Source: Telopea speciosissima
Taxonomy: Eukaryota > Streptophyta > Magnoliopsida > Proteales > Proteaceae
DNA length: 64,000 nucleotides
NCBI RefSeq assembly: GCF_018873765.1
Contig: NC_057920.1
Coordinates: forward strand, 16,071,307-16,135,306
Reading direction: 5' to 3'
Positions 13,761 through 64,000 of this stretch are shown here, piece after piece. The stretch's first letter is position 1, and every line of letters starts with the position of its first letter. The translations under genes and the position numbers were made by a program. The notes under the pieces are model-generated. The model worked only from the letters and a program-made list of their open reading frames with translations. It had not been told where the DNA came from and did not search any database.

Positions 13761-16700
13761 ATGGGTTTCCAATCTCTTATCTTCCTCTTCATGTTGGTAC
13801 TTCTTTCTCAATTCAATCTCTCCTCCCAAGCCAGAGATGGTAATAATCAGTCTCATTTCTTCACTCTCATGAAGCAATCACTCTCTGGTAAATCTTTGTC
13901 TCGTTGGGCCCTCCAAGCTCCTTTCTGCAACTATGCTGGAGTCAATTGCAATGATCATGGAGATGTTGTGTCTATTGATGTGTCTGGGTGGTCACTAACT
14001 GGTCATTTTCCTCCCAACATCTGCTCTTATCTTCCACATCTTCGTGTTCTCCGGCTTGGTCCAAACAAGTTCCATGGCTACTTTCCATCTACCATCATCA
14101 ATTGCTCTGTTTTAGAAGAGCTTAATATTACTGGCTCATCTCTCACTGGATCACTACCAGATTTCTCACCTCTGTCTTCTCTCCGAGTTCTTGATCTTTC
14201 ATACAACTCTTTCACTGGGCAATTCCCCATCTCTTTTACCAACCTCACCAATCTAGAAATTCTGAATTTCAACGAGAATGGCGATTTTGCCCCGTGGCAA
14301 TTACCTGAGGAGATATCTCAGCTGACAAAGCTCAAATCAATGATCTTGACAACAGCTATGGTGCATGGAAAGATTCCAGCAACAATTGGGAATATGACTT
14401 CACTTGTTGACCTTGAATTGAGTGGTAATTTCCTTGTGGGTCAGATTCCTTTGGAGATTGGAAAGCTCAGGAACTTGCAGCAGCTCGAGCTCTACTATAA
14501 TCAGCTCGTCGGCGAAATACCATATGAGCTTGGAAATCTTACACAGCTCATTGATTTAGACATGTCTGTCAATCAATTGAGTGGAAGGATTCCAGAGTCT
14601 CTCTTTAAGCTTCCGAATCTTCAAGTACTGCAACTATACAACAACACCCTCACCGGAGAAATTCCAAGCATGATTGGGAATTCCACCACATTGAGGATAT
14701 TATCTCTCTATGATAATCACTTGACCGGGACAGTGCCCTTGAATCTTGGGGCTTCATCTGATTTAGTAGGTTTGGACTTGTCAGAGAACAGCTTATCAGG
14801 GGAGTTGCCACCAGAGGTTTGCAAGGGAGGTAAATTGGTGTACTTTCTTGTATTGCAAAATCAGTTTTCTGGTCAGTTGCCTGAGACTTATCAGAATTGT
14901 AAGTCTCTTCTTCGGTTTCGGGTTAGTTTAAACAGTCTGCAAGGATCAATTCCTGAGGGGCTTCTGGGTCTTCCTCATGTATCAATCATTGATTTAGCTT
15001 TCAATAAATTTGAAGGTCCAATTTCAAGAACAATTGGAAATGCTAAGAACTTATCAGAGCTGTTCATACAGCAGAACAGGATTTCAGGTCTCATACCACC
15101 AGAAATCTCTCAAGCTGTTAATCTGGTGAAGATTGATCTCAGCAAAAATCTCTTATCTGGACCTATTCCTCCTGAAATTGGAAACCTCAGGAAGCTGAAC
15201 CTATTACTTATGCAAGGTAACAGGATAAATTCATCAATTCCTGCATCACTTTCTTACTTGAAATCTCTAAATGTTCTTGATCTCTCCAACAATCAACTGA
15301 CAGGGGTTATCCCAGATAGCCTTTGTGAATTGCTTCCTAATTCCATCGATTTTTCGAACAATCACCTCTCAGGTCCAGTTCCTCCCTCACTGATCAAGGG
15401 AGGTTTAGTAGAAAGCCTTTCAGGCAATCCAGGTCTCTGTGTTTCTGTCTATCCTAATTTATCTGATACAAAGTTCCCTGCTTGTCCACAAATTTACATC
15501 AGAAAGAAGATGAATTGTATCTGGGAAATTGGGATTTCAATAGTAGTTGTAACCATTGGAGGTATCCTGCTTCTTAAACGTTGGTGTAGCAGAGAGAGAG
15601 TAGTGATGGAACAGGAAGATGAAATGGTGTCTTTGTCCTCCTTCTCACACGTCCAAAACTTCCATAAGGTCAGCTTCGACCAGCGTGAGATCATTGAGGC
15701 CCTGGTAGACAAGAACATTGTCGGAAATGGAGGATCTGGGACTGTTTATAGGATCCAGTTGAACAATGGAGAAGCTGTTGCAGTGAAGAAATTGTGGAGT
15801 CAAAAGACAAAGGACCTTTCAACAGAGGATGATCAATTGGTACTAGATAGAGGGCTAAAGACAGAGGTAGAGACACTGGGGAGCATCAGGCACAAGAACA
15901 TTGTCAAGCTTTACTGTTACTTTTCCAGTTCAGATTTGAATCTTCTGGTTTATGAATACATGCCAAATGGGAACCTATGGGATGCACTTCACAGAGGAAG
16001 AATTCTACTGGACTGGCCAACCCGACATCGGATTGCACTTGGGATTGCACAAGGTTTAGCTTATCTTCACCATGATCTGATGCCGCCGATCATTCACAGA
16101 GACATCAAATCAACCAATATCCTTCTCAGTGCAGATTACCAGGCCAAAGTTGCAGATTTCGGGATAGCCAAGGTCTTGCAAGCAAGAGGTTCAAAGGATT
16201 CCACTACTACTGTTATTGCTGGAACTTATGGGTACCTAGCTCCAGGTAATCAAGTTACAATTCAATTCAAAACCACTGTTACTATGGGCTTAATTCATAT
16301 AGACTTTTCACTCTCCCCCCCCCCCCCCCCCCAACCCTGGAACTTGGCTTTTTTTACTTGTTTGGGTTGCTGTTTCTGCATCATTTGAAATTTCTCTTTT
16401 CCTTGTCAAGCTCTTCTACTTTCCAATTGATCAAGTTACATATCAAGTACTTTGAGTTTTCTTATGTTAATCATTCTCTGTTCAACACTGCTTGTTTTAC
16501 AATATTGATGCTTGCTGACATTTTAATGACAGAGTATGCGTACTCGCCAAGAGCCACAGTCAAGTGTGATGTCTATAGCTTTGGGGTAGTGCTCATGGAA
16601 CTGATAACTGGGAAGAAGCCAGTGGAGCCAGAGTTTGGAGAGAACAAGAACCTCATCTACTGGGTCTCATGCAAGGTGGAGACCAAGGAAGGAGCAATGG

Positions 16701-25164: not shown

Positions 25165-27990
25165 TATCCCATGTCAGGCCATCAGGGCCCCATAAGGAGG
25201 CAAGAAGAGACCCACAAGGGATCAAATATGGTACCCAGAGGGTTCCACTTTTGGAAAGCAAGTAAATGTGGACTAGGTGCTACTAAGGAGACTTGAACCA
25301 CGATCAAGTTCCACGACATTATTCTCCCAAGGGGGCAACAAACCACAAGGACAAGCCCTGGATCGGAAGATGGTTACAACTCTGTGTATGGTTATATAAA
25401 GAATGTCTCGAAAAAGGGTCAAAGTATCTCCAGAAGAGCATGTTGAGAAACTTTCCTAGAATGGCATGGTTTGCCATATGTCCTGTTGGATATATGGGGA
25501 ATTTTTGAATTAACCAATTATAAAATTTCAGATCTAAATTCAATTATTAATCCTCCTTTGTAATGTGATGCCTTTCTACATGTCCATCAATCCATGCATC
25601 CCTTTAGTGAACCACACATCCTTTTGGTGGTATTTGATTTTCCTTTGTTTTATTTGCTACTTAGCAAACTCTATTTAGACTTAAATTTTAAATGTGAGCT
25701 TGGGACACAAGTATTTCTTTATTTCATACGAATTTCTCATATAGTGAAAAGTCAATTCTAAAACAAAAAAGTTTAGAATTTTTTAGCATTATGGAAATCT
25801 TGAGATGTTTTATCTCAAACGATGGTATAATTAACTCCAGAACATTTTTATGAAATAAGACATCAAATTTGGTTATTAAAATTTTCTTTATCATTGCAAT
25901 CAACTTCCTTTGATTTAAAAATAAATAATTTTTATATTATAAAAAAAAATCTATTTATTAAATATAATAAGAGTTTTAGGTAAATTACAGAATCATGATT
26001 ATAAAAACTTTTATTTTTTTTGAAAGTATTTCTATTATCCTTTACTTCCTTTTACTTTCAATCACATAGAATCGTCATGTCTCCTTCATTGTTCATATTG
26101 TATAAGAACAGTTATAAGATATATAATGAATGAAAATATAATTATTTTGTATTTTACGAGTGTAGACTCCCGAAAAATCATGAATTAAATATTTCTTCTG
26201 CCTTTCTCTCGTGCCATAAGGTACCCTTTTCTTCTTGTAAATTTGTTTTTTGGGAGGAGGGGGGGGGGTGTCCTTATGTAATTATACAATTAAAACTTAA
26301 AAGTCTCATTAGGCCGCTAAATAGGTTAGACTTTTTCTTGCATTGTGAACGATGAGAACGTGAAGGAATTAAAAAGGTGGAATAAATGATGTTAATTCAT
26401 ATATATTAATTTGGTTGTCAGCTCAAAGCTGCGGGTGTCACAAATTCTCTGCTATTTTTGTCTTTTACTTGGGGTTAAAAGTCTACTCTTCACCATGTGC
26501 TAAAATACACCGTTAAATGTAACAGAAATCAAGCCCGGTTGTTCAATTCGGATTAGTATCGGCCGATATCGATATTTAATATTGAACTAGAAACGGTACA
26601 GATCAAGGTAAAAAATGGTAAAATATAATATAATATCAGTATTTTTTAGGGCAAAAGCGTTTGATACAAACTGATATTGGTATGATAGTATCAATCTGAT
26701 TCCAAAATCCATTACCCCCCCCCCCCCAAAAAAAAGATTCCAACACTTAAAAATTATGGAATTATTTTTTATTTTCTAACAATGACTTAGGAAAAAGATT
26801 CTCACGATGCTAGATTATGGAATTTTTCTATACTCGTCGTAGCCTTGTGGGGTTCACATTGACACACTCCTTTTATAAATTTGTCTCATTCATCTTGTTA
26901 ATGTGATTTGCCATCATGGAAAACCTTTGCTTAGACACAATCCATCACGAAATAGTCCATCCGGATTCGGCTCCTCTCCAATGAGCAAGCCAGCTCAATG
27001 AGCATCGGACTACTGGGTTGATTGGCACACATCCCTAAACAGGCATCGAGATGTGTGTCAAGCAACCTAGTTGTTGGATGCATCCAAGGAGAGGAGCCTA
27101 ACGTATGTTGATGCTTTTGTGCACACTCTCATTGGCCCATGAAATGACAAACCTCTCCCCCCCCCACCCCCAATGAAAGGTAGAAATCCTATCCAAGTTG
27201 ATGATTTTGTGTACACTCCTAACGTAGGACCCACACTCCTAAACAGAAAACTCTCCCTCATAAGGATATTTTAGTCACTCTAATCACTTAATATGTGAAG
27301 AGACACGTAAATCAATTTTTGTGGCATATCTCAATTCCAGAGCTCCAACTATTAGTTTTCCCTGGTTTCTTCACTCTATAATTTCTTAGATCTACAATAT
27401 AAAATTAAAGGGAAAAAAAACACTAATCGAACATGTGGTTTTTACGACAAATATGGGACTACCCAAAATTACCACTTAGCCCCTATGAACTGAAAAATTC
27501 AATTCAATCAAATGTTCTTGCATGCACTCTTACAAACCCCAGGCATTACTTGACCTGACAATGATCTCTTATCTGTAGATCCCTTGAATAATTTTGACAA
27601 ATGGCTAAAAAGAGAGATATGTGTGCATTCCCAGCGGATTCCTAAGAGAAAATTCTTAAAATTAGAATCAATTGGAATCAAAATCAGTTGATTCCAATTT
27701 GTTAAACCATGCAACAAGAGAGAAAACAATAAAACAGAATTTGGAGAGTTGTGATTGTTGTGAAAGGAATATGTAATAACCAACAAAGTACATCACTAAA
27801 ACCCTAATTTACAAAGCTAATGGGAAACATGATTAAGATGGTTGAATGAAAAAGCCAGCCAAAAATGTGTGCGGTCACTCGTTTTGGTGTTTTCAAGAGA
27901 GAGAGAGAGAGAGACATAGAGAGAGTCGTTAGTTCTTTACCAGAAAACGGAACAAATGAGATGGGATGAAAAAGGCCTTCCACCAGTCGT
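25165..27990. other. Spacer, mostly without recognisable features
   Basis: 26530-26715 has a TATCGG-type repeat. 26950-27100 carries an inverted pair around GGCTCCTCTCC / GGAGAGGAGCC. There is a (GA)n run at 27896-27914. No gene recognised. Confidence 0.35.
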
Positions 27991-28175
27991 AGTAAACACC
28001 AAAGCGTGTTAAATCAGCCGCCCATTAGGATAAAAAAAAAAAACAAACAGAGAGACATGACAAAAAAAAAAAAATTAAGTAGTAAACACCAAAGCGTGTT
28101 AAATCAGCCGCGCATTAGAGAAGGAAAAAAAAAAAAAACCAGGAAAGAAAAGAAAAAGAGACATGACAAAAAAAA
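27991..28175. repeat. Two-copy tandem repeat, period 90, upstream of the miR160-site transcript
   Basis: AGTAAACACCAAAGCGTGTT followed by AAATCAGCCGC occurs at 27991 and again at 28081. Each copy is followed by an A-rich tract and AGAGACATGACAAAAA. It sits just upstream of the TATA-like motif, so it may be a duplicated promoter block. Confidence 0.8.
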
Positions 28176-28203
28176 AAAAGTTTAATAGAATAATTTATAC
28201 AAA

Positions 28204-28211
28204 TATAAATA
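28204..28211 (+). promoter_or_regulatory. TATA-like box for the miR160-site transcript
   Basis: TATAAATA is followed about 50 bases later by a CT-rich tract (28253-28290) of the kind common in plant 5' leaders. Inference from position only. Confidence 0.3.
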
Positions 28212-28634
28212 AAAATTACTTTTTATATTTTACACCATTTGAAAAAAAAAAACCGCTTCTTTCTCATTCTATTTCTCTTTCCCACTCCCACTAGGCTACA
28301 ATGCTACATTACATCAACCCTCCTGGTCTCGCTGGTCCTGTCCTGCCGTCCTGGGCCTTTCTTCCCCTGGCTCGTCCTTTAAAATCAAGGAAACTGGAAC
28401 CATTCCTTCTTAAACTATCTTTCTGTATCTCTCGAATTCCCATTAAAGCCAAACAACAAAGATGGAAGCGAGAAGGACACAGAAAATAGTGTGTGCGACA
28501 GTGAGAGTCAGTCATTTCCCTACAACCCAAAAGCGAAAAAAAAGAGAAAAGGGTCTCTCCTCTCTGCCTCTGCCTCTTCTCCTTCTCTCTGTTTTCTGCC
28601 ATTCCCTTGTTGTTGGGTCTTCACCTATCCTGCA

Positions 28635-28790
28635 ATGGCTCCACAAGACATGTCTTCTTCCTCCATCTCTTCGTCTTCTTCTTCTTCCTCTGCATCTTCC
28701 TCCTTCATTTTCAGGAATGACCCAACTGCCCTTTCTCAGGTGGAGGACTCCCTTGTGAGCAGAAGGTCATTTTGGTGCGTTTTCAGATGA
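28635..28790 (+). CDS. Small serine-rich ORF (51 aa) in the miR160-mimic transcript
   Basis: ATG GCT at 28635 opens MAPQDMSSSSIS, followed by a serine run, FIFRNDPTALSQ and VEDSLVSRRSFWCVFR, and ends in TGA 47 nt before the miR160 site. I recognise no domain. A possible phase-0 donor (CAG|GTGGAG, 28737-28745) after codon 35 means the ORF might be spliced instead. It may be translated like many lncRNA sORFs, or be meaningless. Confidence 0.3.
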   Translation: MAPQDMSSSSISSSSSSSSASSSFIFRNDPTALSQVEDSLVSRRSFWCVFR

Positions 28791-28837
28791 GGTGTACGAT
28801 GTAACTCTGTACAATCCCATCAATATAGAGTAGAGAA

Positions 28838-28860
28838 GGCACACAGGATGGAGCCAGGCA
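28838..28860 (+). promoter_or_regulatory. miR160 target-mimic site
   Basis: 5' arm GGCACACAGG (28838-28847), bulge ATG (28848-28850), 3' arm GAGCCAGGCA (28851-28860). Against miR160 (TGCCUGGCUCCCUGUAUGCCA read as RNA), the 3' arm pairs with miRNA bases 1-10 without a mismatch. The 5' arm pairs with bases 11-20 with one mismatch (base 16). The three extra bases lie exactly between miRNA bases 10 and 11, where slicing would occur. Confidence 0.8.
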
Positions 28861-28900
28861 GTAAAGCTTTCTTAGATTTTCCCTTTATTTTTATACACAC

Positions 28901-31900
28901 AACCCCCAACCCCACCTCACCTACAGCTTCCCTTTTGTTTTTTACCATTTTGCAGTGCTTTTTTTCCCCCACTTTATTTTCAGAAGGAAAAAAGAAAGAA
29001 GAAGCAGCAGCAGAAGAAGGAGAAGGATCATCATCGAGCATTGATCTTGTTGGCCTTGGTCATCATCATCGTCGGAGGAAATAATGCAGCGTATATGGCG
29101 TAATTGGTCTACCCAATGTGTACGTATTTGTGTACGGAATGATGGATATATGGTCGTATGATATTGGTTGCATTGATTGATGATGATGATGTATTTTCCA
29201 TATTTCCTTCTCAATTTTTTCCACAGATTTGGTTCTTCGTAAATATATGTGTCGATTGGTCTATATAATGTTCTTTTCTCACTTCGTTTGAATATGTTTG
29301 ATGTTAAATGAAATGGGAGGTGGGTAGGAAATCACTGGGTTGTGTTATTCTACCTAACCCCTTCCCTTTTCCCTCTTTTCTCTTGTTACTTTTGGGAAAG
29401 GTAAAGGCAAAAAATGATTAACATCTGAACAAATCTATATCTCAAGCATCATGGGTTCACCCCCTCAAGAAAAAGGAAGAGAGAAAAAAAAAAGGGGTTG
29501 AGTTTTACATTTTATGGTTTTGGTGTTTTTGTGTGTGTGCCTGCAATGAATAGAATGGGTTTCGATTTACTGATACAGTTTTAGGTTGAGAAGGCACACA
29601 GAGCAGTTGAAGTGCTGCCTTGTGAGTAGTAAGCTGTGTCTACTGCGATTGTTTGATGATCTAATTTGGTCACTATTGTTCTACATCATTTTTTTTTCCT
29701 TTTCATATTTTGAGTTTAATTTGGTACGTTAGGATCACTTGTGGAGAATTGCGATTATGTCTCTTATTATTGACAGATAATGGGTGATAGTTGTTATTGA
29801 AAAAGAGTATTGGACTGGTGTTCCTTGTACACCCAATCTTCATTGCCTGTTCTTTTTCACTTTTCCCGAAATTTCTTTGTAGCTTATTGAAATAAAAAAG
29901 TGTCTTTACAATCAATTATCTAGGCTCTAGCTATTATAAAATGCGGAGTCGGAGTAATCAGATGGGAATCTGGTTTGAAGTCCAGTTGTTTCAGTGACCA
30001 CAATTCCTTTCAATATCTCCAACTTTGTTTTTCAATGGCACTCTTTTCTGTTAATCCATTATTATCATGATCCTCATATCTCCGCCTACACCACTATGCG
30101 AATGATATATATAAAATATAATGTTGTGAGCAACACAGAGATGCCTCATGGTTGTTTCCAAATCATCTTTTGCATTTCAAGTTGTGGTATCCTTTAGGGA
30201 AGTATTATTTTTAAGGGGGAGGGGGGCATTTAGTACTTTGTTTCAGACTTGATTTGATCTTTGTCGAGTTACAGCCTAGAGCCAGCATGTATTTTTAAGG
30301 GGGCATTTAGTTCTTTGTGCCTTTCAGGCTTGATTCGATCTTTGTTGAGTCACAGTATAAACCCAGCATTTTGTAATATGGCACTCTGTAATCATCACTT
30401 CTAGACATTGTCAAGTGGGTAGAATTGGTCGTTGATTGTGAAAGACCTTCTGCAGTGATTCTTGAGAACCAGGTTAAGCCAATTAGAATGTTTGAGAAGT
30501 GGAGAAGGAAAGCACATTGGCCTTTTGGTGTTCTTTTAATTGAACTGTTGGTTCTTGAAGTTTGGATTGGTGACCCACCTTGAGATACTGAAACCTTTCT
30601 ACTGTAATTGGTTATTGCTGAACAGTCCCACCATTTAGTCATGACGGTTACCTTTTGGTTTGTGGAGGAAACATGTTAGAGCACTGTTGTGCTATTGATT
30701 GAAACTAATGACTGGACTGGTGTCCATTATTTCATCTAAGCATGCTATTGTTTTGGGATATTTGATTTGGAAATAAAAGAAATCCTGCCATCTTATTTAT
30801 TGCAGAGGTAATTGGTCAAGAATATTTATCCATAGTTGGTCCACTTTGGCAGAGTTGGGCTGGTTGCATGTGATCATCCCGCTGAAGTAAGGTAGTGGAC
30901 AAACATCTTAGAAAGCTTGAGGCTGATTTCGTTTGTTTGTCTGAATGTATACAGCACATGTTTCAGTTTCTTATAGGTATATCGGGATTGCACATCCTAT
31001 AACCCAGGATATTAGATGAAGGATGTGAAACTTTCAAGTCAAGAATTATCATACTTCTCCTAGCGGTCGTGAGTTCCTATTTGTAACCCCCCCCCCCCCC
31101 CCAAAGTAACTAACAGCTGCGCACTGCCAATACACCTGAGAATCAGATTTTTTTTTTTTGGTTATACTAATGCAAATACTCATTCCATTTGACTGGTTTT
31201 CTGTTAAGGATTTACAAATAGATTTTATACAATGGGCTTACAATGTGGTTTTTAAAGAAGAAATCTACAATCTGTTTATCATATTTGAACTGATTCCCCA
31301 AGTTAATTGTTTTATTAAAAGGTTAGAGGAAAAGAAACCCTGACAAATTCCAGGAATTCTTAGTTGATTGGAGAGGTTAAGGCTTTGTTGAAGGATGTTA
31401 GGGATGCTTGAGAAGACCAATGAGCAATGAGTACACTTATATTGGATTCCTGGATTGGCGCAATTGTGCATGACTGGATCCATTAGGTTCTCATTACAAA
31501 ATTGATATCAGTTGTCAGAAACATAGGTAGAATAGAAGATACAATTTGACGGAAATTACGTTAAGAGCCCTAGTTAAGGAGTTAACAATCATCTCAGGCA
31601 TGTCATGCTGTCTCACTGGCAGGTGGTTATTAAATTGCCGATAGAGTGCGTTATAGAATGCCTTAGAGTAAGGTAAGATTGTGGTGAATACCTGGTTGAA
31701 ATCTCAAGTGAATGTCCATCCTGAATTATGCATGTGTTGAAGCTGTGGGAATGCTTCAAAATGTGAAGTATGGTTCAGGAAGGACCCCAATAATAGTTAT
31801 ACTTTCAGTTAAGGCAATAGAGGGATTGATTTTAATACCCCAGTTGAGCACTGGTGACATAGGTTTTGTTTGTGGGGGGGGGGGGGGGGAAGACACAACA

Positions 31901-32610: not shown

Positions 32611-32985
32611 CCTTAGTAGCCTTTGGAGCACTTGTAAACAGCCTACAGGCTCATCTCACAGGCATTCTCTGGTGATTCTCAGGGATGGGAGATCCACTTC
32701 ATGGGTGTATCTCCTTTTTGTGGACAGTGGACCCTTTCTGTATTGTCCCACTTGTGACGTGGAGGCCATTTCGGTCATTTTACAGCATTATGGGAGATCC
32801 ACTTAGTAGCTTTAGGAGCACTTGTAAACATTCTACAGGCTCATGTCACATGCACTCTCTGGTGATTCTCAGGGATGGGAGATCCACTTCATGGGTGTAT
32901 CTCCTTTTTGTGGACATTGGACCCTTTCTATATTGTCCCATTTATGACATGGAGGCCATTTCGGTCATTTTACAGCATTATGGGC
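32611..32985 (+). repeat. 190-bp tandem duplication
   Basis: The unit from CTTAGTAGC..GGAGCACTTGTAAAC through GGATGGGAGATCCACTTCAT, GGGTGTATCTCCTTTTTGTG and CATTTTACAGCATTATGGG is present twice, starting at about 32611 and 32801, with few differences. Both copies hold the same short frame, which I regard as non-coding. Confidence 0.85.
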
Positions 32986-52700: not shown

Positions 52701-55700
52701 GATTACAGAAAACCCAAATTTTGGAATAGAACACATGCATGCAATACTTTGCAACATGAAGTGCCAATTGAAGTGTTTGGGCATAAACAGAAGCATTATA
52801 GATTTATAGTTGCCTACTTCTGTCCCTACAATTCCCAAACCTCCAGACAATTCTGACAAATAAAAATAAAAAGAATGCAGAAACCTAACAAGCCCAAAAT
52901 CAGTTCACCGACCTGAACTAAGGATGGAGTGAACAAAACATCTGGAATCTTGAATCTATCAGCTCCAACTTCTATTGTCCTGAATAAAAAATGAGATACA
53001 TGAAGTGATGTAAACCAGAATGCATCAAAGCCCTTGTATCATTTTCAGCGATTTCAAGCAAAGAAAAAGAGGTCTATTGAAATCTGATGTACAACAGAAA
53101 TTGGAAAGATTGCGGAGATTTATGAGTCCCGATTAATGGGAGCATAGTTGTCAAGGCGGCTAGGCAACCCCAAGATGGTGTATGGGTGCCTAGGAGACAA
53201 GGCGCTCGACTAGGTGTCGCCTAGGCAAGCATTATATGTAGTATTTATGCCATAGACATAATTATGTTAGTAATGCAATATGATCAATTTAATGTAAATG
53301 TATCCATAGTTGTCATGGAGTCCAGGCGACCCAAAGCGTTGGAGAGGGGCAAAACTCAAGGCGACACCAATTAGGTGACCTAGGCATCCAAGGCACCCGC
53401 CTAGGCGCCCAAGGTGCCAAGACGCCTAGGCGACGCATTGACAACTATGTTTATGTATCAGTGAAATATGCTAGTAATGACCCAATATGAGAAAACCAAT
53501 ACATAATAAATGTAGGATATAATATAAGCATATTCATCAAAAAGAATAATATAAAGCAATAAACTAAGAGCATAATAGCATATGATTAAGAAACAGAATT
53601 ATAGAACATGTAACTGTGAAAGTATGATTCCATGTGTCACGTATGCTTCATAATCTTGTACACAAATCAATAATAGGGTTAGAATTAGAACCCATTACCT
53701 ATAACATAACCAAAAAAAACACACACACCATACAATATGGCGTCCACCATGCACAAGACATCCAAAGCGATGGCTAGATTCTCAGTTATGGAGTAAGTCT
53801 ACTTGGGGAAGTTAGCTTAACAACTGCAGAATCGATGGACAGAATGGGGGGTTTAAACCAATGATCAATTAAAGCTCTAACAGTTGAATAACCGGTAACA
53901 ATAAGTATGAACAGAATAGCCAAAACAGATTCAACAACCTGATGATTTAACAAATCCTAGTTGCAACAGGATTTCTAGTATTAATTGGAAAATTCAGATT
54001 TTGAAACTATCGAAAGATTCAGAACTAATAACAGAACAAAGAACTGAAATCAAAGATCAATTTTTGAACAAAGGATTTGGAGAAATCCAAGTTGAAGTAG
54101 GAAAATAGATTTCCAAGGGAAAGGATTTTGGGTTTTTGAAGCTATAGCTGAAACTAAATAAAAAGAAAAGATAAAAAGGTCATGGTCAGGAATCACCACC
54201 TGATCTGCAGGGCTGGAATCACCACCAACAACCCAGCCTTGGAATCCATACCAGGGACCCTACTGAATCACCACAGAACCAAAGGCAAAAGCCAACTTAT
54301 ATTCATCACATTTGTGTATAAAGGTGTAGCCCCTTACAAACTTATATAGAAGACTCAAAATCAGACTCAAAATCAGAAAAGTATAGGCCTAAACTGGGTA
54401 ACCTAAACTAACTTGGAAACTGAAATACTAAAGGAGACCGAAATAAGGCTGGACTCTTCGAGACCTATTCTAGCCTAACTAAAATACTTGATAACGGGGC
54501 CTTGACATTGCCCTTCTGCGGCCTTCCTCCTCTGCGTAGGCTGGTTGCCGCCCTCTTTCCCCCCCCCCTCCCCTCTCTCTCTCTCTCTCTCTCCTCCCTT
54601 CTTCCTCTTCTTTCTTGTATATTGGTTCTCTTTCCCTGCCCTCATTTGGGATTCGGTAATATATTCATTTACCAAAAAAAAAAATACTTGATAACAAATA
54701 AAATAAAGAAATATTACTTTAACTAGACTAACAAATAAAATAAATATCATACTGATTCCTTCTACCCATATTTTAGGCCCATTAAAGTGGGACTACTACA
54801 ATAAAAACCCATTGCGATAAAATAAAGAAATATTACTTTAACTAGACTAACAAATGAAATGAATATCATATTGATTCCTTCTACCCATATTTTAGGCCCA
54901 TTAAAGTGGACTAATACAATAAAAACCCATTGAACCAAGGCCCAACATGGATAGAACCAAACCCAAGGCTTATTTCCACTATAATAAGCCCATTTTCGCT
55001 GATATATCTGCATCAAAGGCAGTTGCCTTTTCCGTATCAAATAAGGTGTGTTGTCGCCTTGGACCCTAGACTGTGCCTGGATGCCTAGGCAAACACCTTG
55101 ACAACTATGAATGGGAGAAAATCAGCTCAGCCTTTTGTGACATCAATGGATGATTGAGACCTAAAGAAATATTAATCACTAAAAGGGAATGGTATTCTAA
55201 GTAGCAGCAAATGAGCTGTTCATCACTTTTATTCGGACTGACTTTGGGTAATCAAAACATGTCCTTTTTGCTTGATTTTGGCTCTGTTTGGAAGCGCTAT
55301 CGATTTACCATCCAATGAGACAGAGATCATGCAATTCCAACTCATACTCTCATAGTGGAGAAGTTATGACTAATTTACTGAAGGAGTGTCAATATCTGAT
55401 GCGATTCTATTTTTGGCATGTTTATTTAATTGAGCAAGGTTATTTTAGTCTTTACATTATTTATTGCAGGGATCAATATTAGAAAGTACTTTAGGACAGT
55501 TTTACGATCGGCTATGATGTATGGGGCAGAATGCTGAGCAGTTAAGAAGTGTCATATTGAGAAGCTTTGTGTAGCAAAGATGAGGATGTTAAGATGGATG
55601 TGCGGAAAAACTAGGAAGGATAATGTAAGGAATGAGCTTATTAAAGCGGACTTGGGCGTCGCCCCGATCAATGACGAGCTCGAGAGAGTCGTATGAGGTG

Positions 55701-58257: not shown

Positions 58258-59198
58258 ATAACAACAATAACAACAACTCAGCATTACTCCAACTAAATGG
58301 CGTCGGCTACATGGATCTTTGCCCTTCAATCAGCTGTATTCGAGGTCATACTTGAAACAAGACCTAAGCTATGCGTGTCTTTCCTCACCACTTATCCTAG
58401 GGTAATTTTAGGCCTGCAGCTCTTTTAGTATATTCAATCTGAATCAAGTCACTCCTCCGAACTGTAGCATCCGAAGGCCTCTGTTGAACATGGCCATGCC
58501 ACCTCAGACAAGTTTCTCATAGCTTATCTTGAATCGGAGCAACTCCTAAATCAACTCTAACATGATCATTCCTTTTTTTTATCCTTCCTAGTTTTGCCAT
58601 ACATCCATCTCAACATACGCATCTCCGCTACACTTGGCTTATCTATATGACGTTTCTTAACTCCCTAACATTCCACACCATACATCATAGCTAGTCGCAT
58701 GACTGTCCTATAAAATTTTCCTTTAAGCTTTAAAGGAATACGTCAATCACACAACATTCCGAATGCACCTCTCCACTTCATCCATCCTACTTTAATTCTC
58801 TAAGCAACATCATCTTCTATATCACTATCCTTACTGATGAATCTCAAATACCTAAAATAATCACTTTGTGGAATCTCCCTCTCATCAATTTTCACCCCCT
58901 CATTATCCGTCCTAGAGTTACTAAAGTTATACACCATATACTTCGTTTTTGTTCTACTTATCATGAAAACTTTTGCTTCCAAGGTTGATCTCCATAACTC
59001 CAACTTCGTGTTAATTCCTACTTTTGTCTCATTCACCAAAACAATGTCATCAGCAAAAAGCCTCATCTTGGATGTCCCTGGTTCACAAATCCATGATAAG
59101 TGCAGACAAATAAAGGCTTACGCTGACCCTTGATGTAGCCCAATTGTAATTGGGAATTCACTACTTTGACCCTCCACGGTTTTTACACTAGTCACCAT
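58258..59198 (-). pseudogene. RTE-clade LINE fragment, reverse transcriptase remnant
   Basis: On the minus strand from the high end: VTSVKTVEGQSSEFPIT, GLHQGSA then stop, LFADDIVLVNETKVGINTKL (the FADD catalytic box is intact), TKTKYMVYNFS and FRYLRFISKDSDI, then a degraded tail region ending in CAA/TTG repeats at 58258. It is 5'-truncated, with several stops and frameshifts. It is inserted against repeat copy A at 59199, inside the large ARP4 intron and in the same orientation as the gene. Confidence 0.85.
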
Positions 59199-60531
59199 AA
59201 TGTAGTCCTAGAATAGGAGATAATCCTACTAAGAGCCAAGTGAAATCAGGTTCTGATCAAGTCTGCTGTTTGGGGTAGATTTGGGGTTGTTTAGGGCAAA
59301 TCTAGGGTTTAGGCTAGGGTTATGGATGAAAGTAATATATGGTAATGATCAGCAGGTCTAGGGAATTATTTTGATATAAAAAAAATAAGATTTGATTAGG
59401 TTTTATAATTCTGCAGATTTAGGGTTAGGGTTTCAGGTTTTAGAAATTAAGAAAAATTACCAAAACTAGGGTACGAGTGGGATCTAAGGGCTGGTCTTGG
59501 GATCGAGTTTACCAAACAAGGAGGGGAAGATTCGATCCAAATATGGGAGGGTTTTGATGGTTAGAAGTACTGATTCTGGGTTTTTAGGTTTATGGGGGAT
59601 GAGGGAATTCTAGGGTTTTGAACTAGGGATGGAGACAGCAGTCAGGATCGAGTGGAGGGGTTAATGTAGTGATGCTGTATCTGAAGTTTGAAGGGATTTG
59701 GGTGATAGGATATGGCTGGACTGAATTTAGAACACTAGGGTTTATGAAATTAAAATAGAAAATAAAGGGGGAATTGATTGGAAAGGAGAATGAATAGAAA
59801 AAACAGAATTTAAAGTTCAAACTCACTACTGGAATCCACCGGCAGCAGCTTGAAGGATGAAGGGTGAAACCACCTTCAGAGGGAGATCCTCCCAGCCATC
59901 ACGGCGTAAGGAGTCGCAGGAATCCACCCACCCTTTCCACCTTGAAATCCACAAGGATGCACACTCACAAGGAGCAGAACTGCAGCAGCAGTCGGCTAGC
60001 AGCAGAAAACAGTCTTTTAATTCAAATTTCAATGTGTGGGAGCCTCCCACGATTTTTACTTTTATAATAAAGGGCCAATGGCCAAATCCTAGTACAAATT
60101 AAAGTCTCCTCCTTCTAAAATCGTGGAAGGGAGAGATTTAATCTAACTTAACTAATTTAAAACAGTAAATTGACTAAGATACCCCTACTAACTTAAAATA
60201 AAATAATCTCACTTAAAACAACTAATTTAAAAGAAGATTCCATACTAGCCAATAGGATATAAGGGCCTATTAACCAATAGGAACACTTCACTTAAATTAA
60301 ACCAATTGAACCAATTGGATGCAACCAATTTTAAACCGGTTCAATCTAAAAACATAAAAGTAACTAAGTATTAGGCTAATCCCGTATGCAACCTATATAC
60401 CCCTAGTTTAGGCTCATTAAAGTGGCCTATTACATAGAAAACCTATGGGATCAAAGGCCCAACATACATATAACCCAACCCTAGACTTATTTCTCAAGAA
60501 ATAAGCCCATTTCGGTGATGAATCTGCATCA
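59199..60531. repeat. Dispersed 1.3-kb repeat, copy A (LTR-like)
   Basis: From TAATGTAGTCCTAG to TCTGCATCA. Shares with copy B, in order: ATGGTTAGAAGTACTGATTC, GGAATCCACCGGCAG, GGAGTCGCAGGAATCCACCC, CTTGAAATCCACAAGGATGC, AATTTCAATGTG, and AAGAAGATTCCATACTAGCC-type text. The right terminal 170 bp, ending GCCCATTTCGGTGATGAATC, also resembles 54880-55015. Ends TG..CA are possible, so it may be an LTR, but no primer-binding site or polyprotein is visible. Confidence 0.6.
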
Positions 60532-62885: not shown

Positions 62886-64000
62886 CCTAGACCCTGACTA
62901 ATGTAGCTCTAAATAGAAAAAGGATCCTATTAGAGGCCAAACAACAGGATCTCAATGGACTGCTGGTTCGAATGGGCAGAATAGGTCAACTAGGGCAGAA
63001 TTAGGGTTAGGATGAGGTATTTGAACTAGGGTTTTATTTAGTAATGATGTGCAGGTCAAAAGGAAGCTAATGAAATAAGTTTGGAATAGGTTTAAACAGA
63101 AATTAAAATTCTGAAATTCTAGGGTTAGGGTTTTGGGTTTTGGGATTTAGAACGTAGGTTGAAATTAGGGTTTTTTATGGGAGTTTAGGGCTAGGGTTAG
63201 GGTCGAATTTTCCAGGTAGGGAGGGGAGGGTTCTATCCAAGTATGGGAGGTTTTTGATGGTTAGAAGTACTGATTCTGGAATTTTAGGGTTTTCGGGGTT
63301 TAATGGAGATGAGGGATTTTAGTGTTTGAGAGACAAATAAGGCAGCAGCTTGGGATCGAGTATAGGTAGTGGTATGAAGGGGCTGTAGTATGAATCTGAT
63401 TGAATTTTGATAATGGATGAAGGTTTAATGTAACCTAGATGATATAGGGTTTAAGGGAATCGATGGGATTCAAATAAAATAAAAAGGGGAATGATTGGGA
63501 GGGAGGATGAATGAAAAAAAACAGAATTTAAACTTCAAACTAACCACTGGAATCCACCGGCAGGAGCTTGACAATTGAAGGAACCTCCCAATCGTCTCGA
63601 TGCAAGGAGTCGCAGGAATCCACCCACCCTATCCACCTTGAAATCCACAAGGATGCACTCACAAAGGAGCAGGAACAGCAGCAGCAATCGGCCAGCAGCA
63701 GAAACAGTCTTTTTTTTTCAAATTTCAATGTGGGGGAGCCCTCCACGATTTACTATATTAATAAAATGGCTTTATGCCAAGTCCTAGTACAATTTAAAGT
63801 CTTTTCCTTCAAAAATCATGGAAGGAAGAGATTTAATCTAACTTAACTAATTTAAAACAGTAAAAGACCTATTTAACCCTACTAACTTAAGTTAAAAGAT
63901 ATCTAACTTAAAATAACTAATTTAAAAGAAGATTCCATATTAGCTAATAGGATATAAGGTCCTATTAACCAATAGGAACACTTCACTTAAATTAGACCAA
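62886..64000. repeat. Dispersed repeat copy B, runs off the window
   Basis: Begins near CTAATGTAGCTCTAAATAG and follows copy A to CCAATAGGAACACTTCACTT. Copies A and B stand in the same orientation 3.7 kb apart. Both carry scattered TAGGGTTAGGG/TTTAGGG words in their first half. Confidence 0.65.

Follow-up and report, generated by a model that had tools for sequence, protein, structure and literature searches.

Genomic context of the locus

The window, the whole 64,000-nucleotide stretch of Telopea speciosissima DNA that was analysed, has the look of plant nuclear DNA. It contains an LRR receptor kinase gene, which starts at 13.76 kb, was read to ~16.9 kb and has plant receptor kinases as its best solved-structure matches, and a tubulin gene at 42.9–44.1 kb. 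Within the ~26 kb separating these two genes lies a candidate target-mimic site for miR160 (28838–28860, + strand), which consists of GGCACACAGG, the bulge ATG (28848–28850) and GAGCCAGGCA.

Upstream of the site, the + strand carries a candidate TATA box at 28204–28211 (TATAAATA, a consensus match only, and one of five occurrences of this sequence on that strand across the window), followed by a pyrimidine-rich stretch at 28255–28300 (78% pyrimidine, a level reached by 1.2% of 46-nt windows). Further upstream, a tandem repeat at 27989–28182 is made up of two copies of ~90–100 bp, each with GAGACA/GAGACATGACAAAA. GAGACA is the reverse complement of TGTCTC, the auxin element AuxRE. The + strand of the window contains 18 GAGACA and 14 TGTCTC motifs, and the presence of GAGACA in the tandem repeat is not remarkable by number.

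A short ORF encoding a serine-rich peptide of 51 aa (28635–28790, + strand) ends 47 nt 5' of the mimic site. It has no Pfam match. Its codon score of 0.196 lies above the 95th percentile of 130 intergenic ORFs (0.109). When this stretch is read in a shifted frame it still scores 0.138, so that composition explains part of the value. Given this coding-like codon usage, the RNA that hosts the site may not be purely non-coding.

Downstream of the site, 29582–29601 on the + strand (TAGGTTGAGAAGGCACACAG) is a partial copy of its 5' flank and 5' half (28826–28846). The adjacent 29604–29629 copies 28737–28762 at 77%, and the two segments together form a reordered partial copy. The alignment score of the half copy was reached by none of 300 simulated pairs, the regions having been picked after the repeat was seen. 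The half copy lacks the portion complementary to the miR160 seed, and should therefore not bind miR160 as a mimic.

Pairing of the site with miR160

The site was aligned with canonical miR160, which we take to be UGCCUGGCUCCCUGUAUGCCA. All of miR160 positions 1–10 are paired, as are nine of positions 11–20, the exception being A16, which stands opposite C. Position 21 is unpaired (28837 is A). The site thus has two mismatches in 21 nt (positions 16 and 21) and no G:U pair. The preliminary description of this DNA had read perfect pairing at positions 1–10 and one mismatch at positions 11–20, and the same result was obtained on re-reading against canonical miR160; its account holds through position 20 and omitted the unpaired position 21. 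It had also put the ATG bulge "exactly" between positions 10 and 11, which is a valid placement, but a GAT bulge between positions 11 and 12 scores equally. The miR160 probe printed in PMC9666636 is the reverse complement of the sequence used here.

The duplex of the site with miR160 has an RNAduplex energy of −34.5 kcal/mol, compared with −45.4 kcal/mol for a perfect site and −41.0 kcal/mol for the site with the bulge omitted. The ceRNA rules given in PMC6355781 call for perfect pairing at positions 2–8, a bulge of 2–4 nt at positions 9–12 only, at most four mismatches outside the bulge with at most two in a row, an energy below −25 kcal/mol and an RNAhybrid P-value below 0.05. We scored the site for seed, bulge, mismatches and energy. 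Positions 2–8 are perfectly paired, the 3-nt bulge falls at 10/11 or 11/12, and both the two mismatches and the energy, calculated by RNAduplex in place of RNAhybrid, lie within the published limits. An ordinary miR160 target was considered and rejected, as a 3-nt bulge opposite positions 10/11 argues against it.

Chance expectation

A pattern scan with up to three mismatches, in which the bulge and position 16 were left free, hit the window once and 100 dinucleotide shuffles not at all. Expected counts were calculated for the class of sites with a 3-nt bulge after position 9, 10 or 11, at most two mismatches in 21 nt and perfect pairing at positions 2–8. For miR160, 3.2e-5 sites of this class are expected per window (dinucleotide model of the window); across 29 conserved plant miRNAs the figure is 0.003, and with bulges of 1–5 nt allowed it is 0.015. 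Among these 29 miRNAs, miR160 alone has a site this good in the window. When shuffled pseudo-miRNAs were used in place of miR160, 0 of 2000 produced a window site of that class, with its bulge after 10. With expected counts this low and empty shuffle controls, it is highly improbable that the site arose by accident within a single window. The target-mimic geometry claimed in the preliminary description agrees with the published prediction rules scored above, and goes far beyond chance for one window.

One alternative is that the site is a random match, or a functionless remnant, either of a target site in an ARF or of a MIR160 gene. This window is presumably one of many that were scanned, so that a single find of this kind becomes more probable and the chance figures lose some of their weight. 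Against a random match, the stricter class to which the site belongs (20 nt, at most one mismatch, bulge after 10) has an expected count of 0.02 in 1 Gb of sequence read on both strands. Together with the evidence on relics described below, this leaves the alternative, in our estimate, quite improbable.

The site pattern had no match in viral and genome contig collections, and the region 28400–29000 had none among plasmids; as these collections are non-plant and may omit the source genome, the zero matches say little.

Search for MIR160 and ARF genes

No Rfam family matched the window at its gathering score. Between 28000 and 30000, both strands lacked an Rfam mir-160 match at E values of up to 10, and the 26 weak matches in this interval all lie below the cut-offs of their families. 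Three minus-strand folds gave z values of −0.02, −0.07 and −0.25 relative to dinucleotide shuffles, with 92, 87 and 78 of 200 shuffles, respectively, folding at least as well. In two of the three folds the miR160-like stretch is partly paired, which could be read in favor of a relic hairpin; the lack of an Rfam mir-160 match and of folds stabler than the shuffles speaks against it. We rejected a MIR160 gene or hairpin relic on these two grounds.

Pfam searches of the + strand frames at, beside and spanning the site revealed no ARF domain, which also counts against a relic of an ARF target site. Between 17 and 42 kb, 80 open frames of 65 aa or longer were listed, some of which overlap; the Pfam searches covered 20 of these, including those that span the site, plus one more frame. 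None of them matched at a curated cut-off, and one zinc-finger match at 31.3–31.5 kb was weak and below its cut-off. An unbulged 20-nt miR160 target pattern had no match in the window at up to three mismatches. An ARF10/16/17 gene or fragment was rejected from the absence of a Pfam ARF domain in the frames scanned and of an unbulged target pattern. The earlier statement that no ARF gene surrounds the site is borne out within the 20 of 80 frames scanned in 17–42 kb.

A candidate intron next to the site

A candidate intron of 123 nt (28861–28983, + strand, GTAAAG...TTTTCAG, 7% G) begins directly 3' of the site: the donor-like GTAAAG (28861–28866) abuts it, and TTTTCAG ends at 28983. Around this interval the composition flips from purine-rich to pyrimidine-rich and back to purine-rich. 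In unguided segmentation, 28700–29150 divided best into four segments, whose boundaries lie at 28867, 28982 and 29028. The wider interval 28500–29300 divided best into six; these three breaks recurred, and further ones appeared at 28554 and 28713. The breaks at 28867 and 28982 fall just past the GTAAAG hexamer and at the AG, and the exact positions 28861 and 28984 score 3.9 and 2.0 log units, respectively, below the best breaks. Among 300 random 450-nt pieces of the window, four had a segment that passed the GT/AG test, all of them in this locus; three of the four segments are the candidate intron, and one is the pyrimidine tract at 28554–28713. The composition breaks suggest an intron at 28861–28983, with the mimic site as the final 23 nt of the exon before it.

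As a control, the same method was applied to a single known intron, that of the LRR kinase gene, which has its donor at 16246 and its last base at 16532. There it missed the donor by at least 58 nt and set the acceptor-end break too early, by 5 nt with two segments and by 8 nt with three or four. A comparable poverty in G is found in 1061 of 63877 123-nt windows and in 44 overlapping + strand GT..AG pairs, and GT..AG stretches as poor in G as the candidate intron are not rare elsewhere in the window. The donor at 28861 is weak, scoring at the 71st percentile of + strand GTs and ranking 10th among the GTs in 28400–29300, where those that outscore it include 28766, 28740 and 28792; the splice-site scores were calculated from base frequencies. 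If one of these upstream donors (28766, 28740 or 28792) were joined to the acceptor at 28983, the site would be lost from the spliced RNA.

In a second alternative, the site lies inside an intron of a small protein gene (exon 1 encoding MAPQDMSSSS...) and is spliced away, acting at most as a nuclear or intron-retention decoy. The stronger donor-like GTs at 28740 and 28766, the acceptor-like AG at 28983 and the coding-like codon usage of the first frame are consistent with such a gene, and a 74-aa frame whose tail is hydrophobic results when 28739 is joined to 28984. Since several frames are open across the purine-rich second exon, this 74-aa frame is weak evidence, and the frames given to Pfam had no match. 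In addition, the intron-like pyrimidine-rich tract begins only past the mimic site, and near-perfect pairing with miR160 would be unlikely to persist in a discarded intron. We consider this alternative unlikely.

A further reading, in which the locus is a splice-gated miR160 decoy, appears very improbable to us. Here the choice between the weak donor at 28861 and those at 28740/28766 would set the presence of the site, the bulge would double as a start codon in good context, and the auxin-response-like GAGACA elements of the upstream tandem repeat would close a loop with the ARFs under miR160 control.

The ATG in the bulge

With A at −3 and G at +4, the context of the bulge ATG is favorable (CAGGATGG). 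A 78-aa frame begins with it (28848–29084) and stays in frame when 28861–28983 is removed. These features would be expected of a translation switch, in which the bulge ATG starts a small ORF (78 aa unspliced; 37 aa by arithmetic without 28861–28983) and bound miR160-RISC blocks initiation. Against it stand the low codon score of the frame (−0.106) and the ATGs at 28301, 28462 and 28635, which come earlier if transcription starts near 28.24 kb; the bulge triplet may also be accidental. A translation switch therefore seems to us hardly likely at all.

Proposed function of the locus

From its sequence, we think it fairly likely that the site is part of a + strand endogenous target mimic of miR160 (eTM160), as the preliminary description had proposed; that proposal is a plausible reading of the locus. 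The locus may be transcribed from the TATA-like box at 28204 with a pyrimidine-rich leader, giving a non-coding or short-ORF + strand RNA that carries the mimic site. An intron directly 3' of the site would leave the site in the spliced RNA. AGO1-miR160 would bind the site by perfect pairing in the seed half and near-perfect pairing in the 3' half. As the 3-nt bulge opposite miRNA positions 10–11 would prevent slicing, miR160 would be held on the decoy, and its ARF10/16/17 targets would be relieved.

The mimic reading gets no support from predicted accessibility: among the 23-mers of three candidate RNAs, the site ranks at the 6th, 19th and 26th percentile, and is thus less open than most. This speaks against an eTM160, yet accessibility is a weak predictor.

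If the RNA is expressed, this plant would have in the locus a brake of natural origin on its miR160-ARF10/16/17 auxin module, through which the module could be tuned; the locus would also be a test case for control of mimic-site presence by splicing. As a predicted site alone, it is one further candidate in a published class.

Comparison with known target mimics

In reports that cite Wu et al. (2013), eTM160-1 and -2 are described in Arabidopsis (PMC11353855), an eTM160 in rice (PMC4253996; PMC9975556) and bra-eTM160-1/-2 in Brassica rapa (PMC9975556), with effects reported for the RNAs of rice and Brassica (PMC9975556; PMC4253996). For the Populus RNAs lincRNA432 and lincRNA1174, conservation with 13 mimics from Arabidopsis and rice has been reported (PMC4144774), and eTM160 candidates from annotated genes have been reported in longan (PMC4633511). 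An Arabidopsis eTM160 has been used in potato to lower miR160 (PMC6018911). The Brassica and rice eTM160 transcripts are 464–688 nt long (PMC9975556), a length that would fit the size of this locus. The known eTM160 lncRNAs and the locus described here, where the decoy is predicted from sequence, share the same miRNA and the same kind of decoy. The locus is probably a member of this known kind, and is perhaps an orthologue of one of the known eTM160 RNAs. With such RNAs already known from Arabidopsis, rice, Brassica and Populus, it would be at most a new member. A text literature search with pieces of the site returned no plant paper by title, sequences in figures and supplements lying out of its reach. 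What the present analysis adds to the preliminary description is that the site abuts the donor-like GTAAAG, with composition breaks close to it and at the next TTTTCAG.

The RNA of IPS1/At4, the mimic of miR399, has a short ORF upstream of its mimic site, as does the locus described here. The two also share a 3-nt bulge at positions 10–11 (PMC6888562 for IPS1/At4). They differ in the miRNA, the present locus is without a known link to phosphate, and here a candidate intron lies directly 3' of the site. STTM and artificial miR160 mimics share the principle of a bulged, unsliceable site. These constructs are engineered and usually contain two sites, whereas the site described here is single and natural, with one extra internal mismatch.

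Other features of the window

A mimic-like site for miR828 is present at 55414–55439. With a score of 3, it is the weaker of the two sites, and its bulge of 4 nt follows position 9 or 10; its expectation was calculated strictly, with G:U ignored. Two 190-bp tandem copies with a 93% match occupy 32612–32984. On the minus strand, an open frame at 58800–59117 resembles, by eye, a piece of a LINE-type reverse transcriptase. Two + strand open frames, at 59854–60102 and 63544–63846, have similar sequences (QPSRRKESQESTHPFHLEIHKDA and QSSRCKESQESTHPIHLEIHKDA, respectively) and probably represent a dispersed repeat.
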